64,000 nt of DNA from Histomonas meleagridis (Eukaryota; Parabasalia; Tritrichomonadida; Dientamoebidae), in contig WSYJ01000134.1 in the NCBI GenBank assembly GCA_020186115.1, forward strand, positions 310,001 through 374,000, read 5' to 3'. A program made the position numbers and the translations under genes. Below the pieces are notes generated by a model. The model had not been told where the DNA came from. It searched no databases and saw only the letters and a list, made by a program, of their open reading frames with translations. Each line of letters opens with the position of its first letter. Positions within the stretch are counted from its first letter, which is position 1. Below are positions 11,351-26,888 of this stretch, piece by piece.

Positions 11351-14137
11351 TATGTTTGATCATAAAGATGTAGAAGAGCTGAACACGAAATTTCTCGCAC
11401 TTACTTCTCCTGACCCAAAAGTTCATGATTCAGCTTCGCAAATAATTTAACAAAAAAATGAATTCTGATCCACTTGAATTAGCAATTATATGTGGGTGGT
11501 TCTTAATCAAGCCAATTACCCAGTATCATCTTCCTCGAGTGCTTTACTTTTTATTGATTAAATAATCACTCCTGATGAAAATAATAAAATCGAATTTATC
11601 AGAGAAGAATGGATGAACTATGACCAAGAGAAGCGCAGCTTTATCAAAATTTCTATCCTACGTGCGTTAACTTTACCAGATAGAAGTCTTGCCAATGAAG
11701 CATCACAAACATTAATCAAATTATTTGTAATAGAAAAACATGAAATGCTTCCACTCATTGCACAATTATTTGTTATTATTGAATCATCAGAATACAATGA
11801 TGATACGCATCTCGCAGTCATCAATACTCTTGATTTGTTCAGAAGATATCCTTGATGACATGATTCAATCAGAAGAAGTCAAAGTAGTTCTCGCAAATAT
11901 TTTTTCTTTTATTGGTACGCTTTTTCTTAAGAATAATTCTGAAAACATGTCTTGTACAAGTTTCAATTTGTAATGTATTAAACTCATTAATTTCAATAGC
12001 TACGCCACTCTTTTATCCCCCGGATGTTTTTAATAATTTTGTTACACTTATTGGTAATTATCTTTTTGGTCATCCTTCTCAATTGCTTCATCAGCATTTG
12101 ATGCAACTTTTGACTTCACTCACATTGAAAATTTATGAACACGACGGTTTTAATTTCAGTGGTATCGGCCCTATCGCCCTCAAATTTCTATTCAAAGACC
12201 AAAAACAGAAAAGATCTCTAACGTTCTCAGTTTTTGGGCTAAGCTCACAAATCTCGAAAGGAAAAACACGCAAGCAATTCTATTTAAACAAAGATATGAA
12301 AATCTATTGCAAGAACGTCAACACTCAATTTCAACAACATTACCACCACAGTTCAAATGAGAGATTTAATCAACCCAATTCTTGACAATATAATTCCTTG
12401 TTTAATGGACATGTTAGCACTTATGCCAGACGATGAAAGAGAACCAGAAAATCCTGGGGACCAAACCATCCATGGGAAAGCATTTCAAGTTCTTTCTAAC
12501 ATCTATGAATATCATTCTGATAAAGTATTCTCTTTTATTTTAAAATATTGGCAGACTCATGAACCTTATAGTTCTACATATCCAATTCAAAATTCCTTAT
12601 TATTGACAATAGCAATTGTTTCAAGACCACCTCAATCACCTCAACAAGCAAATGATATTTTTAACTTTTTAACAAGAAATCTTTTATCAGAAGGAGAATT
12701 TTTTATCACCAAATTTTTAATTGAAGCAATTGCACATCCATATAAGCGAATGACAGATACAGCACTTTATGTTATAAGTTTGTTGTTAGAAAACTTTGAT
12801 CTATATATGACAGACGAATATTTTGATATTTTACTTGGACAAATGCAAGCTCATTTTATGGATCATAATATTATTACAGGACGAGTTTTTGCTGTTATTA
12901 ATCAACTAATTTTAAGATGTTATAATTTTAATCATGTGTCACTTTATGAAAAATATTATGAATCTTTAGGAACCTTTTGTGTAAAATTTCTAGGTTTTTT
13001 TTCTCAAACATTTAATGCTCCACCAAGTTTATTACAAACATGTTCTTATGTAATGATAAATTTAATTAAGTATGCACCAGACAGTAAACAAGAAAGTGTT
13101 GGAAAAAATATTTAACCAATCAATGTCAACTATAGATAATTTTAAAGATTTTCAAAACATGGATAATAACAGCGAAAACTTTGCCCTAGTATCAGATAGT
13201 ATTTATTTTGTTATAATGTGTTTCCATCGATTTCCTAATCATTTTCAACATTATGGTGTACCTGTAGCACAAAAATTATTAAGCATAATCAAATTTAGAA
13301 ATGTATTATTAGAAGAATGTTCATATGGTTTAATATCTATAATATCTTCATTAGGTATAAATGTTACAAATATATTTAATGATATGCTTCAATGCATTAG
13401 TTTCTCATTAACAAGTGAAAAACCTTCCGTTATACGAGCTAAAGTTGGAGTACTTGCGGCACTTTATAGAACTGTTTTAAGTGAAGGGGTTAACAATGAG
13501 TGTGCAATAGAATTAATAAATAGATTTCCGACAACTTTACAATTAATCATCGATTGTTTAGTAAAAGGAAATTTTGAAAGAGAATTAAATGTTAAAATTC
13601 TTATGAGTCTTTCAAAAGTTATTAAATCTATTGCTCCTAAGATAAGTAAAGATGAAAGAGACAACTTAATGCAATTATATCGTATATTTGAATACGCCTA
13701 TTAACTTTAGCAATAATAAAAACGAAAAATTCGTATCCGATTTATATACTGCTGTAATTAGAGGTTACGAAGCTTTGCTACATACAGTTAAACCTGGAGA
13801 ATTAAGAAATAGAAGTTTAAAGAGATTTTTCCTTATGAAAACTGTTGATAAAGTATTGGAAATGAAAGAACAAACATTCGATTGCTTAAATGCGATACTT
13901 GATTTATTTATAACTTTTGATGATGTTTTCGGTAATAACTTCTTTCTATGTAGATCAAAAATTTTTCAATTAGTATCATTTGCTTATTGTTTGTCTCTCC
14001 CTGGTAGAAGAAAAGAAGAACTCGAATTAAAACATAAGTCGATGCAATTATTTAGAAAATATCGATATAATTGGAAATTAAAATACCAATGCATTACTTG
14101 GAATCCAATCCCATTTATGACTTCTTCCATTTTCTAA
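11351..14137 (+). pseudogene. importin subunit beta-1 (karyopherin beta), multiply disrupted
   Basis: From the ATG at 11351 the three plus-strand frames together spell a HEAT-repeat importin-beta of normal length (about 850-900 residues): MFDHKDVEELNTKFLALTSP at the N-terminus; EASQTLIKLF; KISNVLSFWAKLTNLERKN, equal to the family's 'ALQGIEFW' HEAT; DDEREPENPGDQTIHGKAFQ, equal to the acidic loop region; and C-terminal HEATs ending near FRKYRYNWKLK. The frame changes near 11450, 11855, 11955, 12200, 12355, 13105 and 13695, and in-frame stops occur early (TAA after ASQII; TAA in FID*IITPDE). Some breaks fit +1 insertions in short homopolymers, but the stops need substitutions, so true decay is likely. 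Importin-beta carries NLS cargo through nuclear pores; a functional copy must lie elsewhere. Confidence 0.8.
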
Positions 14138-16442: not shown

Positions 16443-17365
16443 TCATATGTACATTAATGCTAACGCTGTAATTCCTTTTGCATGCGATTTATCATTTAAG
16501 TAAACAACATTTCCTTCATTCACATTCCAAGTTCGATAAGTTTTATCTGTTCCACCTGTCACTACATAATTTGAGTCATTAGTAAAAGCTGCATCCCAAA
16601 TCCATTTGTTTGTGTTATGTTTTAATACTTTCTTTTGTATTAATGTGTTTTTGTCCCAAATTTTGGCTGTCGAATCTGCTGACGTCGTAATAATGTTTTC
16701 TTCATTAGGCGAAAGTAAACATCGAAGAATGACATCGTTATGCGCTTCAAACTCATTCGCTTTATGAAATTCATCGTTATAATGATGAACAACAATAACT
16801 TTACCGTCATGACATCCGCAATAAATTTCTTCCCCATTTCGACTTTGTGAAATACTCCGAATAGGTTTAGTACAAAGACGAATCGAATATAAAAGTTTAT
16901 GCTCACTAATATCCCATGATTCAAGATATCCATTCTCATTACATGTAATTAATAATTTCTTATTCGGATGAAGACAAATATTATTAAGTGGTGATGACGT
17001 AGTAATGGTTTGTTGTGGTCGAATTGATCCTTGTCGTCGATCCCAAAAATTAATCGTACGATCTTCACTACATGTATAAAAAATTATCCCCCTGAAAAAA
17101 ACAAGATCATTAACGTTTGAAAATATGTCACTGCATATTGTGACGGTTTAGAATTTTTTAAAACATCATGGATGATAACATATGGATTTAATGCTAACGC
17201 AATTTCGTTGTTTTCTGTGATAACAATTCGATTAACTTGTGAATTACCAGTGCTAATTTTGCTGAACTTTGGAATATCTTCTTTATCTTCAAAAATTTTG
17301 GTAAAATTAACACTTAAATCATATCCTGCTGTTACTAATATAGGATATTTCGTGCTTGAATTCAT
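16443..17365 (-). pseudogene. LST8 WD40 protein, left-arm copy with frameshifts
   Basis: This is the mirror of the intact LST8 at 25971-26888. The first ~80 codons are identical, then at 17084-17130 several differences cluster: CAGTGAC for CAGGAC, ATATTTTC for ATATTTC, seven Ts for six, GGGGG for GGGG and six Ts for five. They shift the frame before the second WD repeat. Downstream sequence is again nearly identical but no longer in frame with the start. It cannot make full-length protein as written. Confidence 0.85.
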
Positions 17366-17680
17366 ATGAAATTTAAAAATACTGTCTCGTGACGATCAAA
17401 AGTGGCATTGTATTTGGCCGATTTAAATGTAAAAAAATTTTTATTAAAAATGCTTTAAATAATTCTAAATTTATATGTATCATGAAAAAAAATATTAATA
17501 TTTTTAATAATTGGATATGATTTATTTCTAAAAAGTATCCGAATCATAAAATTAATTTAATATTATTTATCATCATAATTATGATAATATGTCCAAATAT
17601 AAGTTCTAAGGATCATTATATTAAATAATTCTTAAATTTTACAACCAAATATTTGATACATTAAATAATTCAAAAGTAAA

Positions 17681-19055
17681 TTATGAATTAACTTTTTGAA
17701 GTAACGTAACAACTTCAGTATACCCATTTTCTATTGCTTTTATAAAAGCCGTATTAAATAATATTAATAATTTCCAAATATTATTTTGTAATTTCAATTC
17801 ATCAAAATAAATACAAAATTGTTATAAGGAGCATCTGTAGAATTGATATCAATTCCTTCTTGTTTAAGAAGTAATTCAACTATTTCTATATTCCCATTTT
17901 CAGATGACCAAATAAGCGCAGTTTCAAATAATTTGAAGAATTTCCATATATTATTTGGATATATAAAATTAATATTACAAATTTCATAGAAAAATATAAC
18001 AATATTTTTGGAATTGATATTAATTCCTTTTTGGTCAAGAAGTAATTTAACTATATCTGTATAACCATTTTTAGATGCACAAATAAGTGCTGTATAAAAT
18101 GATTTTAATAATTTCCTTATATTATTTTGAAATTCCGATATATCAAAATAAATTTTAAACAAAACAAATAAATATTTTTGGCATTGACATCAATTCCCTC
18201 ATGTTCAAGAAGTAATTTAACTATTTCTATATAACCAAAAGATGATGCAATAATAAGTGGTGTGTTAAATGTTTTAAACAATTTCCAAATTTTAATTTCA
18301 ATCAGAAAGACATCAAAATAAATTTCACACAAATCAAATAAACATTGTAGTCATTGATATTAATTCCTTTTTGATCAAGAAGTAATTTAACTATTGCAGA
18401 ATGATTAGTTTTAGATGCACATATAAGTACTGTATCAAATATTTTAATTGATTTCCAAATATTACTTCGAAATAGAAAATTATTAAAATAAATATTAAAT
18501 GATATAATTAAATATTTTTAGTATTAATATCAATTTCTTCTTTTTCGAGAAGTAATTTAACTATATTTATATAACCAAAAGAAGATGCAATAATAAGTGG
18601 TGTATTAAATATTATGAATAATTTCCAAATATTATTTTGAAACAGAAAATTATTATTACAAATTTTATATAAAACAAATTAATATCTTTGGCATTGATAT
18701 TAATTTCTTTTTGATCAAGAAGTAATTTAACTATTTCTATATTCCCATTTTCAGATGACCAAATAAGCGCAGTTTCAAATAATTTGAAGAATTTCCATAT
18801 ATTATTTGGATATATAAAATTAATATTACAAATTTCATAGAAAATATAACAATATTTTTGGAATTGATATTAATTCCTTTTTGGTCAAGAAGTAATTTAA
18901 CTATATCTGTATAACCATTTTTAGATGCACAAATAAGTGCTGTATAAAATGATTTTAATAATTTCCTTATATTATTTTGAAATTCCAATATATCAATATA
19001 AATTTTAAACAAAACAAATAAATATTTTTGGCATTAATATCATTTTCTTCTTGTT
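17681..19055 (-). repeat. headless ankyrin-module array in the left arm
   Basis: On the minus strand this array repeats the ankyrin modules of gene 2 (cores such as TALICASKNGYTDIVKLLLD and TPLIIASSFGYIEIVKLLLE). It ends with the same short final module and TAA at 17681-17683. It lacks the long N-terminal (DUF3447-type) frame that precedes the right-arm array. Its 5' end stops abruptly at 19055 next to GGCCGATTTAAAT. Units follow the 170-bp spacing described for the other arrays, with one 171-bp unit. It also contains a tandem duplication of about 305 bp. Without a head or start codon it is probably silent. Confidence 0.8.
17881..18186 (-). repeat. 305-bp segment tandemly reused at 18732-19035 (two ankyrin modules)
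   Basis: Positions 17881-18186 and 18732-19035 are nearly identical; one base of a poly-A run and a few substitutions differ. The second copy lies at the inner end of the left array and has no counterpart on the right arm, so it was added after the arms formed or lost on the right. Confidence 0.85.
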
Positions 19056-19075
19056 CAAGCTCGGCCGATTTAAAT

Positions 19076-20881: not shown

Positions 20882-23212
20882 TTAATCATCATAGTCATCA
20901 TAACCATCATAATCTTCAGTGTAATTTCCATTCATTCTTTCTTTCGTTTTAGCAAGATTAATCATATTATAACCTTCCACCTTGAGATTAGCCAAGAACT
21001 TAATAATCGGAACGCATTTTTGGTACAATTCTTCATCATCTGGTGATGAAGGTCCTGAATTTTCGAAAAGTATTTGAGTAATATCAAAACGTTTAAATAA
21101 TCCACAGATTGAAATACATGCAAAAATTTTATGAATAAACTACGAAATTCAATAATAAATATTCATTATAAAGAAATAAACTACAAATAATCAAAACGAA
21201 CTGGGTTAGTTGCGAAATCGCATGATGGATGTTCCAAAAGCATCTGAACAATTTCAATTGATCCAACTCTACATGCTAATAATAATGCAGTAATATTAAT
21301 TTTTAAGAAAATTCAAAAAATTATTCAAATAAATTTGGAACATTAAAAACAAATATCTTTTGCATTTATATCAATGTCATCTTTTTCAAGAAGTAATTTA
21401 ACAACGTCAGGATGATTACATAGAGATGCATTCATTAATGCAGTAGAAAACAATATGAAAAAACACCAAATATCAGTTTCAAACATAAAAACATTAAAAC
21501 AAATACATAACAAAAGAAATAAATATCTTTTGCATTTACGTCAGTATCTTTTCTTTCAAGAAGCATTTTGACAATATTTGTGAATCCGAATTTTGATGCA
21601 AAAATAAGTGCTGTAATAATTACTTTCAATAAACATCTAATTGAGCCATGAAACACCACATTAATGATATAAACTTTGTGATAAAAGAAGAAATATATCT
21701 TGCATTTACATTAATATCTTTACATTTAAGAAGCATTTCAACAATTTTTTCATATCCTTTTAATGATGCAGTAATAAGAGGTGTCGAAAATAATTTGAGT
21801 TAATATTAATTAATATTCAAAAACATCAAAAAATTTGATTAATCTGGAAATAACATAATAAAATATTTCCAGCATTCACATCAATATCTTTTTGTTCTAA
21901 AAGTAACTTTACAATATCCACGAAATTACGAGCAATTGCTATTAATAATGCTGTTTCATGAAACAAAAATAAACGCCAAATCTTTCATTTGAATATAAAA
22001 TTATTAAAACAAATTTTATATACATCAAAAAAGCATTTTCAAATTTATATCAACTTCCTTTTGTTGAAGAACGAATTTTATTAATTCGATATTATTCGAA
22101 ATAACACATTGAACTAAAGCATCTTTTGGAACCTGGTGCGTTTGTATGAAATCTTTATAAAGAAATATATTTCCAAGATCTAAACACACATGAATCATAG
22201 AATCATCAACTTCCATTCCTTCATCGAACAAAAAAGAAAGAATTGTATAATTATTAAATTCGACACATTCCGCTCCTAACTTAGCAAGAGGAGGAATTTC
22301 TATTATTTTATTATCATAAAAGTAATGAAAGATCTCATTTCGATGGAATTGAATTGCAGCTTCATAAGCGCCTTCAAATGATGAATGATTTTGTTCACAT
22401 ATTTTGATAATTGCTAAGCTTCCTCCAGTAATTGCAAAATTCATCGATGAAAATAACTTAGCTCCGTTCATTAATAAAAATTTAAAACATTTAATCGAAC
22501 CAAAATATGCTGCAAATTCTATGAGATGTATACCAAAATCATTAACATATGTACATCGTTCATAAAGCGATGGTACAATTGTTTGATTAAAATCAAATTT
22601 CGGTTGTGATGAAATTTGTTGAAGTTTCTCAATTTCATCATTTCGAAGTATTTTAGTAATCTCTGATGGATTAACTCCGTCTTTATTAAGTTTTTTATGA
22701 AGTTTCCAATCATCTTTAATAAGTTCTTTTATGTTTGAAGCAAATTCACTTGAAAACTTTAATTGTATTTGCGATTCTGGTTCAATTGAAGTTATTTCTT
22801 TAAATGTCATATAATGCGCAAAATATACAGTTTGCTTTAATTTAACTACTTGTGGACTAATTAGGTTTTCCTCGACCATTAACTCAAGAAGATAATTCGA
22901 TTCATCTGAAGGTAAACGAAGAAGTAATGATGAAAACGTTTTTATTAAATCATCTGGAATTTTTGTTAATTTTTCTTCTTCTGTTTGTAACAAACCAATA
23001 TATTTAATACATGCAATTGCTTCAATTTCTTGTGTCATGAATGCTCGACAAGCTAGTTGTGAAATAATTTCATTGTAAGATGAAATTAAACTTACATTAA
23101 ATATTTCAATTGTAGTTTTCACAGATGAATCAATATTGTTAACATTTAAGTTTAAGATAATTTGCTCAAGTGGAATGAGCTTTTCCCTGAGAAAACTCTT
23201 TGTTTCAGACAT
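20882..23212 (-). CDS. ankyrin-repeat protein gene 1: 395-residue head plus separated ankyrin modules
   Basis: The head (22025-23212, ATG start) has the trichomonad ankyrin layout: a helical N-terminal domain (DUF3447-like; MSETKSFLREKLIPLEQIIL onward), then ankyrin-like repeats ending with NIELIKFVLQQKEVDINLK. After a stop at 22025 the gene continues as ankyrin cores whose first codons lie at 21954, 21784, 21614, 21444, 21291 and about 21136, each open, separated by ~60-77-nt AT-rich segments containing stops. A C-terminal module with no ankyrin features (GPSSPDDEELYQKC..., acidic tail YDGYDDYDD) ends at TAA 20882-20884. All cores and the tail are undamaged, which argues for use as one gene whose intervening segments are removed. 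If not, only the head is made. Ankyrin proteins of this group are abundant in trichomonads and mostly uncharacterised. Confidence 0.6.
21136..21954 (-). repeat. ankyrin modules of gene 1 at 170-bp spacing
   Basis: Distances between successive TAL/TPL codons are 170, 170, 170, 153 and about 155 bases. Each module has ~93-99 nt of ankyrin coding (T.L..AS..G...IVK.LLE...IDVNAKD) followed by ~60-77 nt of AT-rich spacer, typically starting ATATTT. 170 is not divisible by three, so consecutive cores lie in different frames. Confidence 0.85.
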
Positions 23213-23330
23213 AAAAAAATGTTATCAAAATTGAATACTAAGCGGTTTTTTATTTGTCACAACACTAAATAGTTTCATATAACATTTCCCAACGGTTATT
23301 ATCAGAAAAAGTTTCCAGTGTTGTGGAACA
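23213..23330. promoter_or_regulatory. 118-bp bidirectional start region between the two ankyrin heads
   Basis: Ankyrin genes 1 (-) and 2 (+) start 118 bp apart, head to head, and their heads are paralogous, consistent with an older inverted duplication centred here. No specific motif is assigned. Confidence 0.45.
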
Positions 23331-25655
23331 ATGAAAAGCAAGTATTTCGATTTGCTGATGGAAAAGCAAAAGCTATTTTTAAATAATATCAAATTACTCC
23401 AATCGATTCATCAAATTATTTTTTGTTTGAACAAGGAAAATATTTCTCGATCAGTACATTTAATTATTGAACTATTTGATAATATTTACTCATACACTTT
23501 TAATCTAATAATTAGCCAAATGATATATTGTGCAGTATTTTGTGAAAAATTTAATGATGTTGATATATATATTGAATTTATAAAAGAAATCGAATTATTT
23601 GAAGAAAAAAGCAAAATTAGATTTAAAATATTTGAATTTTTTCCCAATTTTCTTATTCACATTAATACATGTGAATCAAATTTCCTTCTTCACAATATGA
23701 TTGAACATAATATCCTTTCACCAAAAGATGTTAAAAATTGTTTATATTTTGTGCATTATGGTTTAGGTGATTATAAACAAAACGAAGAAAACCTTTTACA
23801 GAATAATTGTGAACTTCATAAGAAATATATTAAAGCTGGTGTTAATCCAAATGAAATTGTGAAAATAATACGAAATGATGATATTATAGAACTTCAAGAA
23901 ATATCATCACAAACAAATTTTGACTTTAATCAAACAATTGAACCATCACTTTATGAAAGATGTGAATTTATTAATCAAAAACATGTTACATTAATTGATT
24001 ATGCAGCATTTTTTTCTGCAGTTAAATGTTTTAAATATTTGCTTATGAATGGTGCAAATGTAAATAAAACAGGTAAATATGCAATTGCAGGCGGAAATAT
24101 TGAAATCATTCATTTATGTGAACAAAACCATATGGCATTTTATGGATTATATGAAGCAGCAATTAAATACCATAAAAATGATATTTTTAAATATATTTAT
24201 GAAAATAAAATCGAAGAACTTTATGATTTAGAAAAATTAGGGATTTTATGTGTTTTACATCATAATTATGAAATTTTTTCATTTTTACTTGGAATTGGAA
24301 TGGATATTAATGAAAATATTATTGTTAAATCAGCAAAAATCGGAAATTTATTTCTCATTAAACATTTTCTAAAAGAAAATTTAATACCGAAAAATATTTT
24401 GTTTTCATCAATAAAATCAGGAAACATTGAACTTGTTCAGTATATTTTAGAACAAGAAGGAATTGATATCAATAGTAAAAATATTAATTTGTTTTATTTC
24501 GAATTGATTTTTATAATTTAATATTTCAAAATAATAATTGGAATTTATCCAAATTATTAGCAACAGCTCTTACTCTTGCAACTAAAAAAGGTTTCGCTGA
24601 AATAGCTCAATTACTTCTTGAGCAAAAAGAAATTAATATCAATGCCAAAGATATTAATTTGTTTTATATAAAATTTGTAATAATAATTTTCTGTTTCAAA
24701 ATAATATTTGGAAATTATTCATAATATTTAATACACCACTTATTATTGCATCTTCTTTTGGTTATATAAATATAATTAAATTACTTCTCGAAAAAGAAGA
24801 AATTGATATTAATACTAAAAATATTTAATTATATCATTTAATATTTATTTTAATAATTTTCTATTTCGAAGTAATATTTGGAAATCAATTAAAATATTTG
24901 ATACAGTACTTATATGTGCATCTAAAACTAATCATTCTGCAATAGTTAAATTACTTCTTGATCAAAAAGGAATTAATATCAATGACTACAATGTTTATTT
25001 GATTTGTGTGAAATTTATTTTGATGTCTTTCTGATTGAAATTAAAATTTGGAAATTGTTTAAAACATTTAACACACCACTTATTATTGCATCATCTTTTG
25101 GTTATATAGAAATAGTTAAATTACTTCTTGAACATGAGGGAATTGATGTCAATGCCAAAAAATATTTATTTGTTTTGTTTAAAATTTATTTTGATATATC
25201 GGAATTTCAAAATAATATAAGGAAATTATTAAAATCATTTTATACAGCACTTATTTGTGCATCTAAAAATGGTTATACAGATATAGTTAAATTAAAAAAA
25301 AAAAAAAAAGGAATTAATATCAATTCCAAAAATATTGTTATATTTTCTATGAAATTTGTAATATTAATTTTATATATCCAAATAATATATGGAAATTCTT
25401 CAAATTATTTGAAACTGCGCTTATTTGGTCATCTGAAAATGGGAATATAGAAATAGTTGAATTACTTCTTAAACAAGAAGGAATTGATATCAATTCTACA
25501 GATGCTCCTTATAACAATTTTGTATTTATTTTGATGAATTGAAATTACAAAATAATATTTGGAAATTATTAATATTATTTAATACGGCTTTTATAAAAGC
25601 AATAGAAAATGGGTATACTGAAGTTGTTACGTTACTTCAAAAAGTTAATTCATAA
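23331..25655 (+). CDS. ankyrin-repeat protein gene 2: 396-residue head running into the right-arm array
   Basis: The head (23331-24521, ATG) is a clear paralog of gene 1: both contain DGVNPSEI/AGVNPNEI followed by K(I)LRNDEIEKLQ or KIIRNDDIIELQ, SSQ..FDFNQTI.PSLYERC, and the repeat ending EGIDINSKNI. Seven further cores begin at 24563, 24733, 24903, 25073, 25244, 25414 and 25584, followed by a short end (EVVTLLQKVNS) and TAA at 25653-25655. Spacing is 170 bp, except one 171-bp unit whose extra A lets two cores share a frame. In core 5 ten bases are replaced by As. The head lies in the unique spacer, the array in the right arm. Translation past the head would need removal of the spacers. Confidence 0.6.
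24563..25655 (+). repeat. ankyrin modules of gene 2 with 170-bp period
   Basis: Core starts are spaced 170, 170, 170, 171, 170 and 170 bases. Spacers are about 77 nt and share a consensus: they begin ATATTTATTTG and end near AATAATATTTGGAAATTATT followed by AAAATATTTAAT before ACA. Neither GT...AG nor the trichomonad GTATGT/ACTAACACACAG intron signals are conserved. Confidence 0.9.
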
Positions 25656-25970
25656 TTTACTTTTGAATTATTTAATGTATCAAATATTTGGTTGTAAAAT
25701 TTAAGAATTATTTAATATAATGATCCTTAGAACTTATATTTGGACATATTATCATAATTATGATGATAAATAATATTAAATTAATTTTATGATTCGGATA
25801 CTTTTTAGAAATAAATCATATCCAATTATTAAAAATATTAATATTTTTTTTCATGATACATATAAATTTAGAATTATTTAAAGCATTTTTAATAAAAATT
25901 TTTTTACATTTAAATCGGCCAAATACAATGCCACTTTTGATCGTCACGAGACAGTATTTTTAAATTTCAT

Positions 25971-26888
25971 ATGAATTCAAGCACGAAATATCCTATATTA
26001 GTAACAGCAGGATATGATTTAAGTGTTAATTTTACCAAAATTTTTGAAGATAAAGAAGATATTCCAAAGTTCAGCAAAATTAGCACTGGTAATTCACAAG
26101 TTAATCGAATTGTTATCACAGAAAACAACGAAATTGCGTTAGCATTAAATCCATATGTTATCATCCATGATGTTTTAAAAAATTCTAAACCGTCACAATA
26201 TGCAGGACATATTTCAAACGTTAATGATCTTGTTTTTTCAGGGGATAATTTTTATACATGTAGTGAAGATCGTACGATTAATTTTTGGGATCGACGACAA
26301 GGATCAATTCGACCACAACAAACCATTACTACGTCATCACCACTTAATAATATTTGTCTTCATCCGAATAAGAAATTATTAATTACATGTAATGAGAATG
26401 GATATCTTGAATCATGGGATATTAGTGAGCATAAACTTTTATATTCGATTCGTCTTTGTACTAAACCTATTCGGAGTATTTCACAAAGTCGAAATGGGGA
26501 AGAAATTTATTGCGGATGTCATGACGGTAAAGTTATTGTTGTTCATCATTATAACGATGAATTTCATAAAGCGAATGAGTTTGAAGCGCATAACGATGTC
26601 ATTCTTCGATGTTTACTTTCGCCTAATGAAGAAAACATTATTACGACGTCAGCAGATTCGACAGCCAAAATTTGGGACAAAAACACATTAATACAAAAGA
26701 AAGTATTAAAACATAACACAAACAAATGGATTTGGGATGCAGCTTTTACTAATGACTCAAATTATGTAGTGACAGGTGGAACAGATAAAACTTATCGAAC
26801 TTGGAATGTGAATGAAGGAAATGTTGTTTACTTAAATGATAAATCGCATGCAAAAGGAATTACAGCGTTAGCATTAATGTACATATGA
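25971..26888 (+). CDS. LST8: LST8 (mLST8/GbetaL) WD40 subunit of TOR complexes
   Basis: The 305-residue protein is a seven-bladed WD40 propeller of the normal LST8 size (303-326). Diagnostic features are the start PILVTAGYDLSVNF (family PILVTAGYDHTIRFW), SQVNRIVITENNEIALALNP (SQVNRLEITPDKRLLAAAGNP), TCSEDRTINFWDRR, LNNICLHPNKKLLITCNENG (VNTVVLHPNQAELISGDQNG), AHNDVILRCLLSPNEENI, and the penultimate blade WIWDAAFTNDSNYVVTGGTD (WVWDCAFSADSAYLVTASSD). LST8 binds the kinase lobe of TOR and stabilises TORC1 and TORC2 in the cytosol. This is the only intact copy in the window. Upstream, TTTCATATG gives a possible Inr (TCATA) hugging the ATG. The gene lies 8 kb from a TOR-like gene on the other strand. 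Confidence 0.9.
   Translation: MNSSTKYPILVTAGYDLSVNFTKIFEDKEDIPKFSKISTGNSQVNRIVITENNEIALALNPYVIIHDVLKNSKPSQYAGHISNVNDLVFSGDNFYTCSEDRTINFWDRRQGSIRPQQTITTSSPLNNICLHPNKKLLITCNENGYLESWDISEHKLLYSIRLCTKPIRSISQSRNGEEIYCGCHDGKVIVVHHYNDEFHKANEFEAHNDVILRCLLSPNEENIITTSADSTAKIWDKNTLIQKKVLKHNTNKWIWDAAFTNDSNYVVTGGTDKTYRTWNVNEGNVVYLNDKSHAKGITALALMYI

Follow-up and report, generated by a model that had tools for sequence, protein, structure and literature searches.

Seventeen-nucleotide AT-rich inserts alternate with single codons in ankyrin genes of Histomonas meleagridis and may be removed as intron-like elements

Introduction

The tiny spliceosomal introns of Stentor coeruleus are 15-16 nucleotides (nt) long, and 8173 of 8806 measure exactly 15 nt (PMC9505925). 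In the parabasalid Trichomonas vaginalis, 63 active introns are defined by extended motifs, and those of type B measure about 25 nt, the shortest being 23 nt (PMC12316389). For Histomonas meleagridis, the published virulent genome (187 contigs, 43.4 Mb, 28.66% GC) has 11,119 genes and 573 predicted introns, and the word ankyrin does not occur in the main text of that paper (PMC8529796). Here we analyze a 64,000-nt stretch of H. meleagridis DNA (contig WSYJ01000134.1, positions 310,001 to 374,000, forward strand; hereafter the window, to which all coordinates refer unless a contig is named) that carries two genes of the DUF3447-ankyrin type, gene 1 on the minus strand and gene 2 on the plus strand. 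The C-terminal ankyrin loops of both genes are interrupted by AT-rich inserts of 17 nt that alternate with single codons, and our preferred though still tentative reading of this pattern is that the inserts are very short elements, akin to introns, that are cut out of the RNA. No such elements are described in the titles and abstracts of the literature on introns of Histomonas and trichomonads, on ankyrin, on frameshifts and bypassing, or on tiny introns.

Results

Ankyrin loops are divided into single codons by 17-nt inserts

The ankyrin cores of gene 2 start at 24563, 24733, 24903, 25073, 25244 and 25414, followed by a diverged last module at 25584, and those of gene 1 start at 21954, 21784, 21614, 21444 and 21291 on the minus strand. 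The earlier note on this DNA had reported a core spacing of 170/171 bp at these starts, which our analysis bears out, as it does the observation that each core is open and that gene 1 finishes in an open acidic module reaching 20882. The note had also held that no frame crosses the array; this is correct for the 170-nt steps, which change the frame, but not for the 171-nt step (25073 to 25244) or the 153-nt step (21444 to 21291), across which the frame is kept. The separators themselves, which the note took to be single blocks of about 77 nt, turned out to consist of AT-rich 17-nt inserts, typically four (68 nt) or, in the 153-nt class, three, with single codons of the ankyrin hairpin loop interleaved between them.

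When the inserts are dropped, the canonical ankyrin loop D-x-x-G-x-T is restored. In the 83-nt class of separators, a codon followed by an insert occurs four times before a final codon, giving five codons and four inserts, while in the 66-nt class codons 1 and 2 adjoin and three inserts remain. All seven loops of gene 2 have glycine in the fourth place and continue with T-A/P/V-L/F. In gene 1, the fourth place is occupied by glycine codons GGC and GGT in two loops and by N, D and N in the other three. Together with the Pfam Ank matches in the N-terminal open reading frames (ORFs), the loop register places these proteins among the ankyrins, with a repeat of 33-34 residues and a D-x-x-G-x-T-A/P-L loop.

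Because each insert is 17 nt long and the remainder consists of whole codons, the intervals between cores should obey a 3m + 17n rule, as in 102+51=153, 102+68=170, 99+51=150, 105+68=173 and 105+85=190. We surveyed the window and 58 further loci of the assembly, where 180 core-to-core intervals of less than 400 nt were found. The commonest were 170 (90 intervals), 153 (45), 150 (13), 171 (9) and 173 (6), and the rarer ones were 154 (2), 155 (1), 161 (2), 163 (1), 190 (2) and more than 200 nt (9). Thus the genome-wide search for spaced cores that the earlier note had called for shows the 170-nt spacing recurring across the assembly, which is not a matter of chance. The nine longest intervals were each inspected, since cores were accepted at a score above 24 and badly broken ones that escaped the scan would appear as intervals of more than 200 nt. 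The rule was followed with 3-5 inserts by 156 of the 180 intervals and with 9 and 11 inserts by two; a further seven fit if the core length differs, always by a multiple of three and with the core open. The remaining 15 were off-rule: 171 (nine intervals), 154 (two), 155, 161 (two) and 163. Eight distinct 84-nt separators lie behind the 171-nt intervals, and six of these score positive with one 18-nt insert (best of four placements).

Some loops are considerably longer. Four loci have loops of 5 to 11 insert-codon units in which the 17-mers are near-identical and the codons varied and stop-free; in the 11-unit loop, eight 17-mers are identical and the intervening codons differ. One array elsewhere in the assembly has a three-insert loop followed by an insert-free loop, N-N-R-G-K, which looks like a precise loss or absence of inserts, a change resembling intron loss.

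The codons between the inserts behave as coding sequence

We next consider the coding tests, which started from 168 unique separators. In the 143 with lengths of 63, 66, 83 or 86 nt, none of the 708 codon slots between inserts holds a stop, where 30.5 would be expected if the slot columns were sampled independently, and only 2 of 201 unique cores carry a stop, where simulated neutral evolution to the divergence seen here gave a mean of 76 (62-99).

The slot codons were also compared with 27 contiguous ankyrin loops from the same genome, using the 124 separators of 66 and 83 nt that have five slots (the remainder of the 168 have other lengths). The true register scored +8.07 bits, while 20 shifted registers scored −9.2 to −22.8. 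As the reference loops had been chosen with glycine fixed, the test was repeated without the glycine slot, and the true register again stood out (+3.94 bits versus −4.1 or less); the same held with one separator per locus (n=28; +5.55 bits versus −10.3 or less). Variability in the 83-nt class is higher in the slots (entropy 1.11 bits) than in the inserts (0.61 bits).

Length changes in the cores were multiples of three in 7 of 7 cases, as against 2 of 15 among the off-rule separators (Fisher p 0.0002), although three of the seven changed cores share one change, leaving about five events. Since the units are tandemly duplicated, these core counts of stops and length changes are not independent. 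Taken together, the slot, register and core tests show coding that continues in frame across the inserts, which is the property of an intron in the broad sense. They also support the suggestion of the earlier note that the cores are functional and the frame is somehow bridged, and disfavor its alternative of decaying repeats that merely kept their spacing.

Reading through the inserts, as a repeat of 51 residues, was considered for the classes whose separators are in frame, and was rejected. Of the 66-nt separators, 20 of 41 are open, where 16.7 are expected, and of the 63-nt separators, 1 of 13 is open, where 1.0 is expected. This openness at chance level indicates that the inserts are not read through. 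From the sequence evidence as a whole, we consider it quite likely that the protein does not contain the inserts.

The insert-free N-terminal domain gives a less uniform picture. Twenty copies could be judged, and 12 of these have the domain in a single open frame: genes 1 and 2, L010, L014, L017, the plus-strand copy of L018, L019, L020, L021, L025, L026 and L027. The eight in which the frame is broken by a stop or a frame change are those of L011, L012, L013, L015, L016 and L022 and two in L023. The L009 copy and the minus-strand copy of L018 are incomplete, and L024 has none. Inspection of the breaks inside the domain for extra inserts revealed no clean 17-nt insert. In L013, the first loop past the domain has four 17-nt inserts, as judged by eye.

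The inserts are numerous and very AT-rich

The 548 inserts examined, 270 of them distinct, are 93.7% A+T, and the only strongly conserved feature of a diverse set of 38 is TTT at positions 2-4. Searching the 43.28-Mb assembly (121 contigs) for the insert pattern ATTTGGAAATTATTTAAATTATTTNNNACAGCA with at most one mismatch returned 1204 + 1194 = 2,398 matches and none for the reversed control, and a second insert type in tandem returned 926 + 438 matches versus 0 in the control. An AT-rich 24-mer on a viral contig was also matched, by chance; no ankyrin core is present there, and this candidate was set aside. The motif ACTAACACACAG, which we take to be the extended 3′ motif of parabasalid spliceosomal introns, had only 3 matches across the assembly versus 2 for its control, in agreement with the earlier note, which had found the separators to lack known trichomonad splice signals. 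A candidate U6 snRNA is present at C36:377228-377335, scoring 43.7 bits against an Rfam gathering threshold of 44, with an intact ACAGAGA box.

The gene family extends beyond the window and probably beyond H. meleagridis

Eighteen metagenome proteins (P0001 to P0018) are 35-52% identical to gene 2. One of them, P0001, a relative of the N-terminal domain, matches the assembly at 48-55% identity in at least 97 near-full-length places and in two split copies, a lower bound because 99 of 8255 candidates were scored. P0001, the only metagenome protein compared with the assembly, thus shares no more than 55% identity with any listed place and probably belongs to another species, which would mean that the inserts are not an assembly artifact. 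Several of the 14 metagenome relatives examined end in, or run into, a stretch resembling a first insert, and a possible reading of P0016 is N-K-[17]-Y/H-[17]-G-[17]-K-T-A-L, although it was made by eye from the protein and is uncertain. Two further proteins may be mentioned here. P0003, another metagenome relative, apparently has an insert-free loop 1 and a next loop that enters an insert-like tail (by eye), and in P0022 from Tritrichomonas foetus an ankyrin loop is lengthened by a hydrophobic stretch of about 16 residues, which could be an unrecognized intron or a related insert.

The protein search for relatives of gene 2 gave only three matches named H. meleagridis by NCBI. A search of the genome for contiguous copies scored 150 candidates and gave 360 matches; the contiguous copies among those listed are only 43-62% identical, which leaves no close donor for gene conversion in that list, and no whole-array insert-free copy was present there.

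Gene 2, gene 1 and a third array in the window

The window has a GC content of 28.4%, and its proteins include BspA-type leucine-rich repeat (LRR) and M60-like proteins in addition to the two ankyrin genes. The insert-free N-terminal part of gene 2, with DUF3447 and ankyrin repeats, occupies 23331..24482 of the plus strand (ORF 23331-24521; Pfam DUF3447 and Ank), and the first insert begins at 24483. Loop 1 (24483..24562) has four 17-nt inserts and the codons CGA, AAT, GGA and GCA, giving N-R-N-G-A in a split made by eye. In loop 2 (24650..24732), the codons GAT, AAA, TCT, GGA and AAT (D-K-S-G-N) are separated by inserts at 24653-24669, 24673-24689, 24693-24709 and 24713-24729. Four 17-nt inserts are likewise found in loop 3 (24820..24902; N-N-S-G-D), loop 4 (24990..25072; N-E-S-G-N), loop 6 (25331..25413; N-E-Y-G-E) and loop 7 (25501..25583; D-C-E-G-N). 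Loop 5 (25160..25243; (K/N)-K-G-G-Y) is 84 nt long with one 18-nt insert, where the third array of the window has 83 nt, and the counterpart of loop 6 is 84 nt in one third-array copy. The final ankyrin module and the stop codon lie at 25584..25655. In the core at 25244-25330, a run of 16 A replaces codons found in the duplicate, with the length unchanged, possibly an assembly artifact.

Gene 1 has its insert-free N-terminal part at 22037..23212 of the minus strand (ORF and Pfam; DUF3447 and ankyrin repeats), which shares about 42% identity with its counterpart in gene 2. Its loop 1 (21955..22036) measures 82 nt, with a first insert of 16 nt and three of 17 nt, and reads M-K-Y-G-E in a split made by eye. 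Loops 2 (21785..21867; N-P-D-N-S), 3 (21615..21697; Y-K-G-D-I) and 4 (21445..21527; D-C-Y-G-S, with glycine as GGT) have four 17-nt inserts each. Loop 5 (21292..21357) has three, and by eye the split D-Q-F-N-I, in which the last two codons adjoin, is preferred; the counts used the alternative D-I-I-E-I, in which the first two codons adjoin as is standard for the three-insert class. The open C-terminal module with its acidic end runs from about 21136 to 20882.

The third array (minus strand, about 17683-19050) is an inverted copy of gene 2, nearly identical but truncated at its 5′ end, and it shows the same insert anatomy. Gene 2 and a downstream WD40 gene (23331-26888, plus strand) apparently recur together as an inverted duplicate at 16460-19060 of the minus strand, where the WD40 gene is broken into two ORFs and the ankyrin array is 5′-truncated. 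Elsewhere in the window, overlapping ORFs in different frames at 11613-14137 of the plus strand are probably a single long decayed gene.

Discussion

Our findings describe thousands of elements of 17 nt, about 94% A+T, in which we see no known signal for splicing, hopping or excision, and on balance we favor the view that a form of RNA processing or decoding not described so far removes them and leaves single-codon exons. As to where this happens, exclusion at the RNA level instead of on the ribosome is our working choice, held with some reserve. We prefer excision from RNA because inserts of 16 and 18 nt seem to be tolerated, because one array has an insert-free loop, and because ultrashort introns exist in Stentor. 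In such a process, AT-rich inserts sitting at codon boundaries in the C-terminal hairpin loops would be removed from the RNA, single codons would remain as exons, and the product would be an ordinary ankyrin array of 34-residue repeats with variable loops. The U6 snRNA candidate, the 12 open copies of the N-terminal domain and the metagenome relatives that seem to enter similar inserts also count in favor of this reading.

Several observations weigh against this proposal. Among the 548 inserts, GT..AG occurs in one, and in none at any other shift from −4 to +4, so that the earlier note was right to find no GT-AG; AT..AC occurs in two and, when shifted by two, in four, the maximum over the same range. 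U1 was not found in the assembly with the Rfam model, and we know of no other system with single-codon exons. The dN/dS comparison of cores that the earlier note had proposed was uninformative, as the ratio (non-synonymous to synonymous rate) of 0.80 in the true frame falls between the 0.50 and 1.04 of the two wrong frames and shows no clear purifying selection. The inserts are as conserved as the cores, and homogenization of the units may therefore inflate all of the counts given above. The frame of the N-terminal domain is broken in 8/20 copies. In a protein search with the insert-free consensus, the best 120 of 2,279 matches were other ankyrins and included no insert-free relative above 60% identity. 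Finally, inserts were seen only in the ankyrin loops of this family, other families not having been searched systematically.

The main rival is ribosomal bypass, in which the mRNA would keep the inserts and the ribosome would skip each 17-nt stretch and resume at the next codon. The shortness, near-constant length and AT-richness of the inserts would suit such hopping, and yeast mitochondria bypass 81 block inserts, several of them without perfectly matched codons (PMC5009743). We nevertheless regard bypass as unlikely, though it deserves serious attention: the codon before the insert matches the last triplet of the insert in 10/548 cases, where 10.0 are expected, and the RNA folding of 25 separators is unremarkable (mean z +0.77). 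In addition, a ribosome that had to hop many times in one protein, with only three nucleotides between hops, would have to do so with near-perfect efficiency, and inserts of 16 and 18 nt occur; that 18-nt inserts give good loops suits the recognition of boundaries better than a hop of fixed length. It is less probable still that the arrays are dead or untranslated, with the protein ending in the first insert and the coding appearance a relic of recent duplication or gene conversion. The broken N-terminal domains, the truncated yet open third array, the similar conservation of inserts and cores and the uninformative dN/dS would all fit decay. Within the arrays, however, the near absence of stops from cores and slots and the in-frame core indels are not what pseudogenes would be expected to show, the diverged gene 1 retains the insert anatomy, and no close conversion donor appeared among the matches listed.

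An expressed insert-free version made by excision of DNA, as with the internal eliminated sequences of ciliates, would account for short inserts that carry neither splice nor hop signals. We consider this very improbable, as the matches listed include no whole-array insert-free copy and we know of no DNA-level elimination in parabasalids. The proposal of the earlier note, one conventional or AT-AC intron per separator, would restore the frame by removing the whole separator, and yet we find hardly any room for it. All single-intron splits tested (1+4 to 4+1, left and right) have negative average scores, between −1.9 and −10.9 bits, whereas the 17-nt model reaches +7.8 and +8.6, and stops arise in 11 of 12 split-by-class tests; the variable, stop-free codons within the separator would be left unexplained, and AT..AC is as rare in the inserts as noted above.

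Ankyrin hairpin loops form a binding surface. The position of the inserts in these loops suggests, as a conjecture, a role in loop diversification, and they may offer stretches of homology by which single loop codons are added or shuffled, with up to 11 insert-codon units per loop. Removal of the inserts would mean that one codon suffices for an exon and that an intervening element can be 17 nt long without GT-AG, and what is defined as an intron or as a readable gene would change. Annotation of this poultry parasite would then also represent a large ankyrin family poorly, as suggested by its many N-terminal copies, the three relatives named by NCBI and the silence on ankyrin in the main text of the genome paper (PMC8529796).

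On the available sequence, the inserts are probably removed or skipped by a mechanism not yet described. Ciliate internal eliminated sequences are likewise short, AT-rich inserts in genes that need removal; ciliates, however, have a two-nucleus biology, whereas the present inserts are seen only in ankyrin loops and give no sign of DNA excision. The bypassing of T4 gene 60 and of Magnusiomyces capitatus mitochondria has in common with our case blocks of nucleotides within genes that are absent from the protein (PMC5009743), but the inserts described here lie in a nuclear-type assembly and in one loop of one domain. The type B introns of T. vaginalis resemble them as short introns in a parabasalid and differ in carrying extended motifs. 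The Stentor introns are similarly ultrashort, near-fixed in length and AU-rich, but they mostly start with GU and end with AG, whereas the H. meleagridis inserts lack GT-AG, are 17 nt long and are spaced by a single codon.

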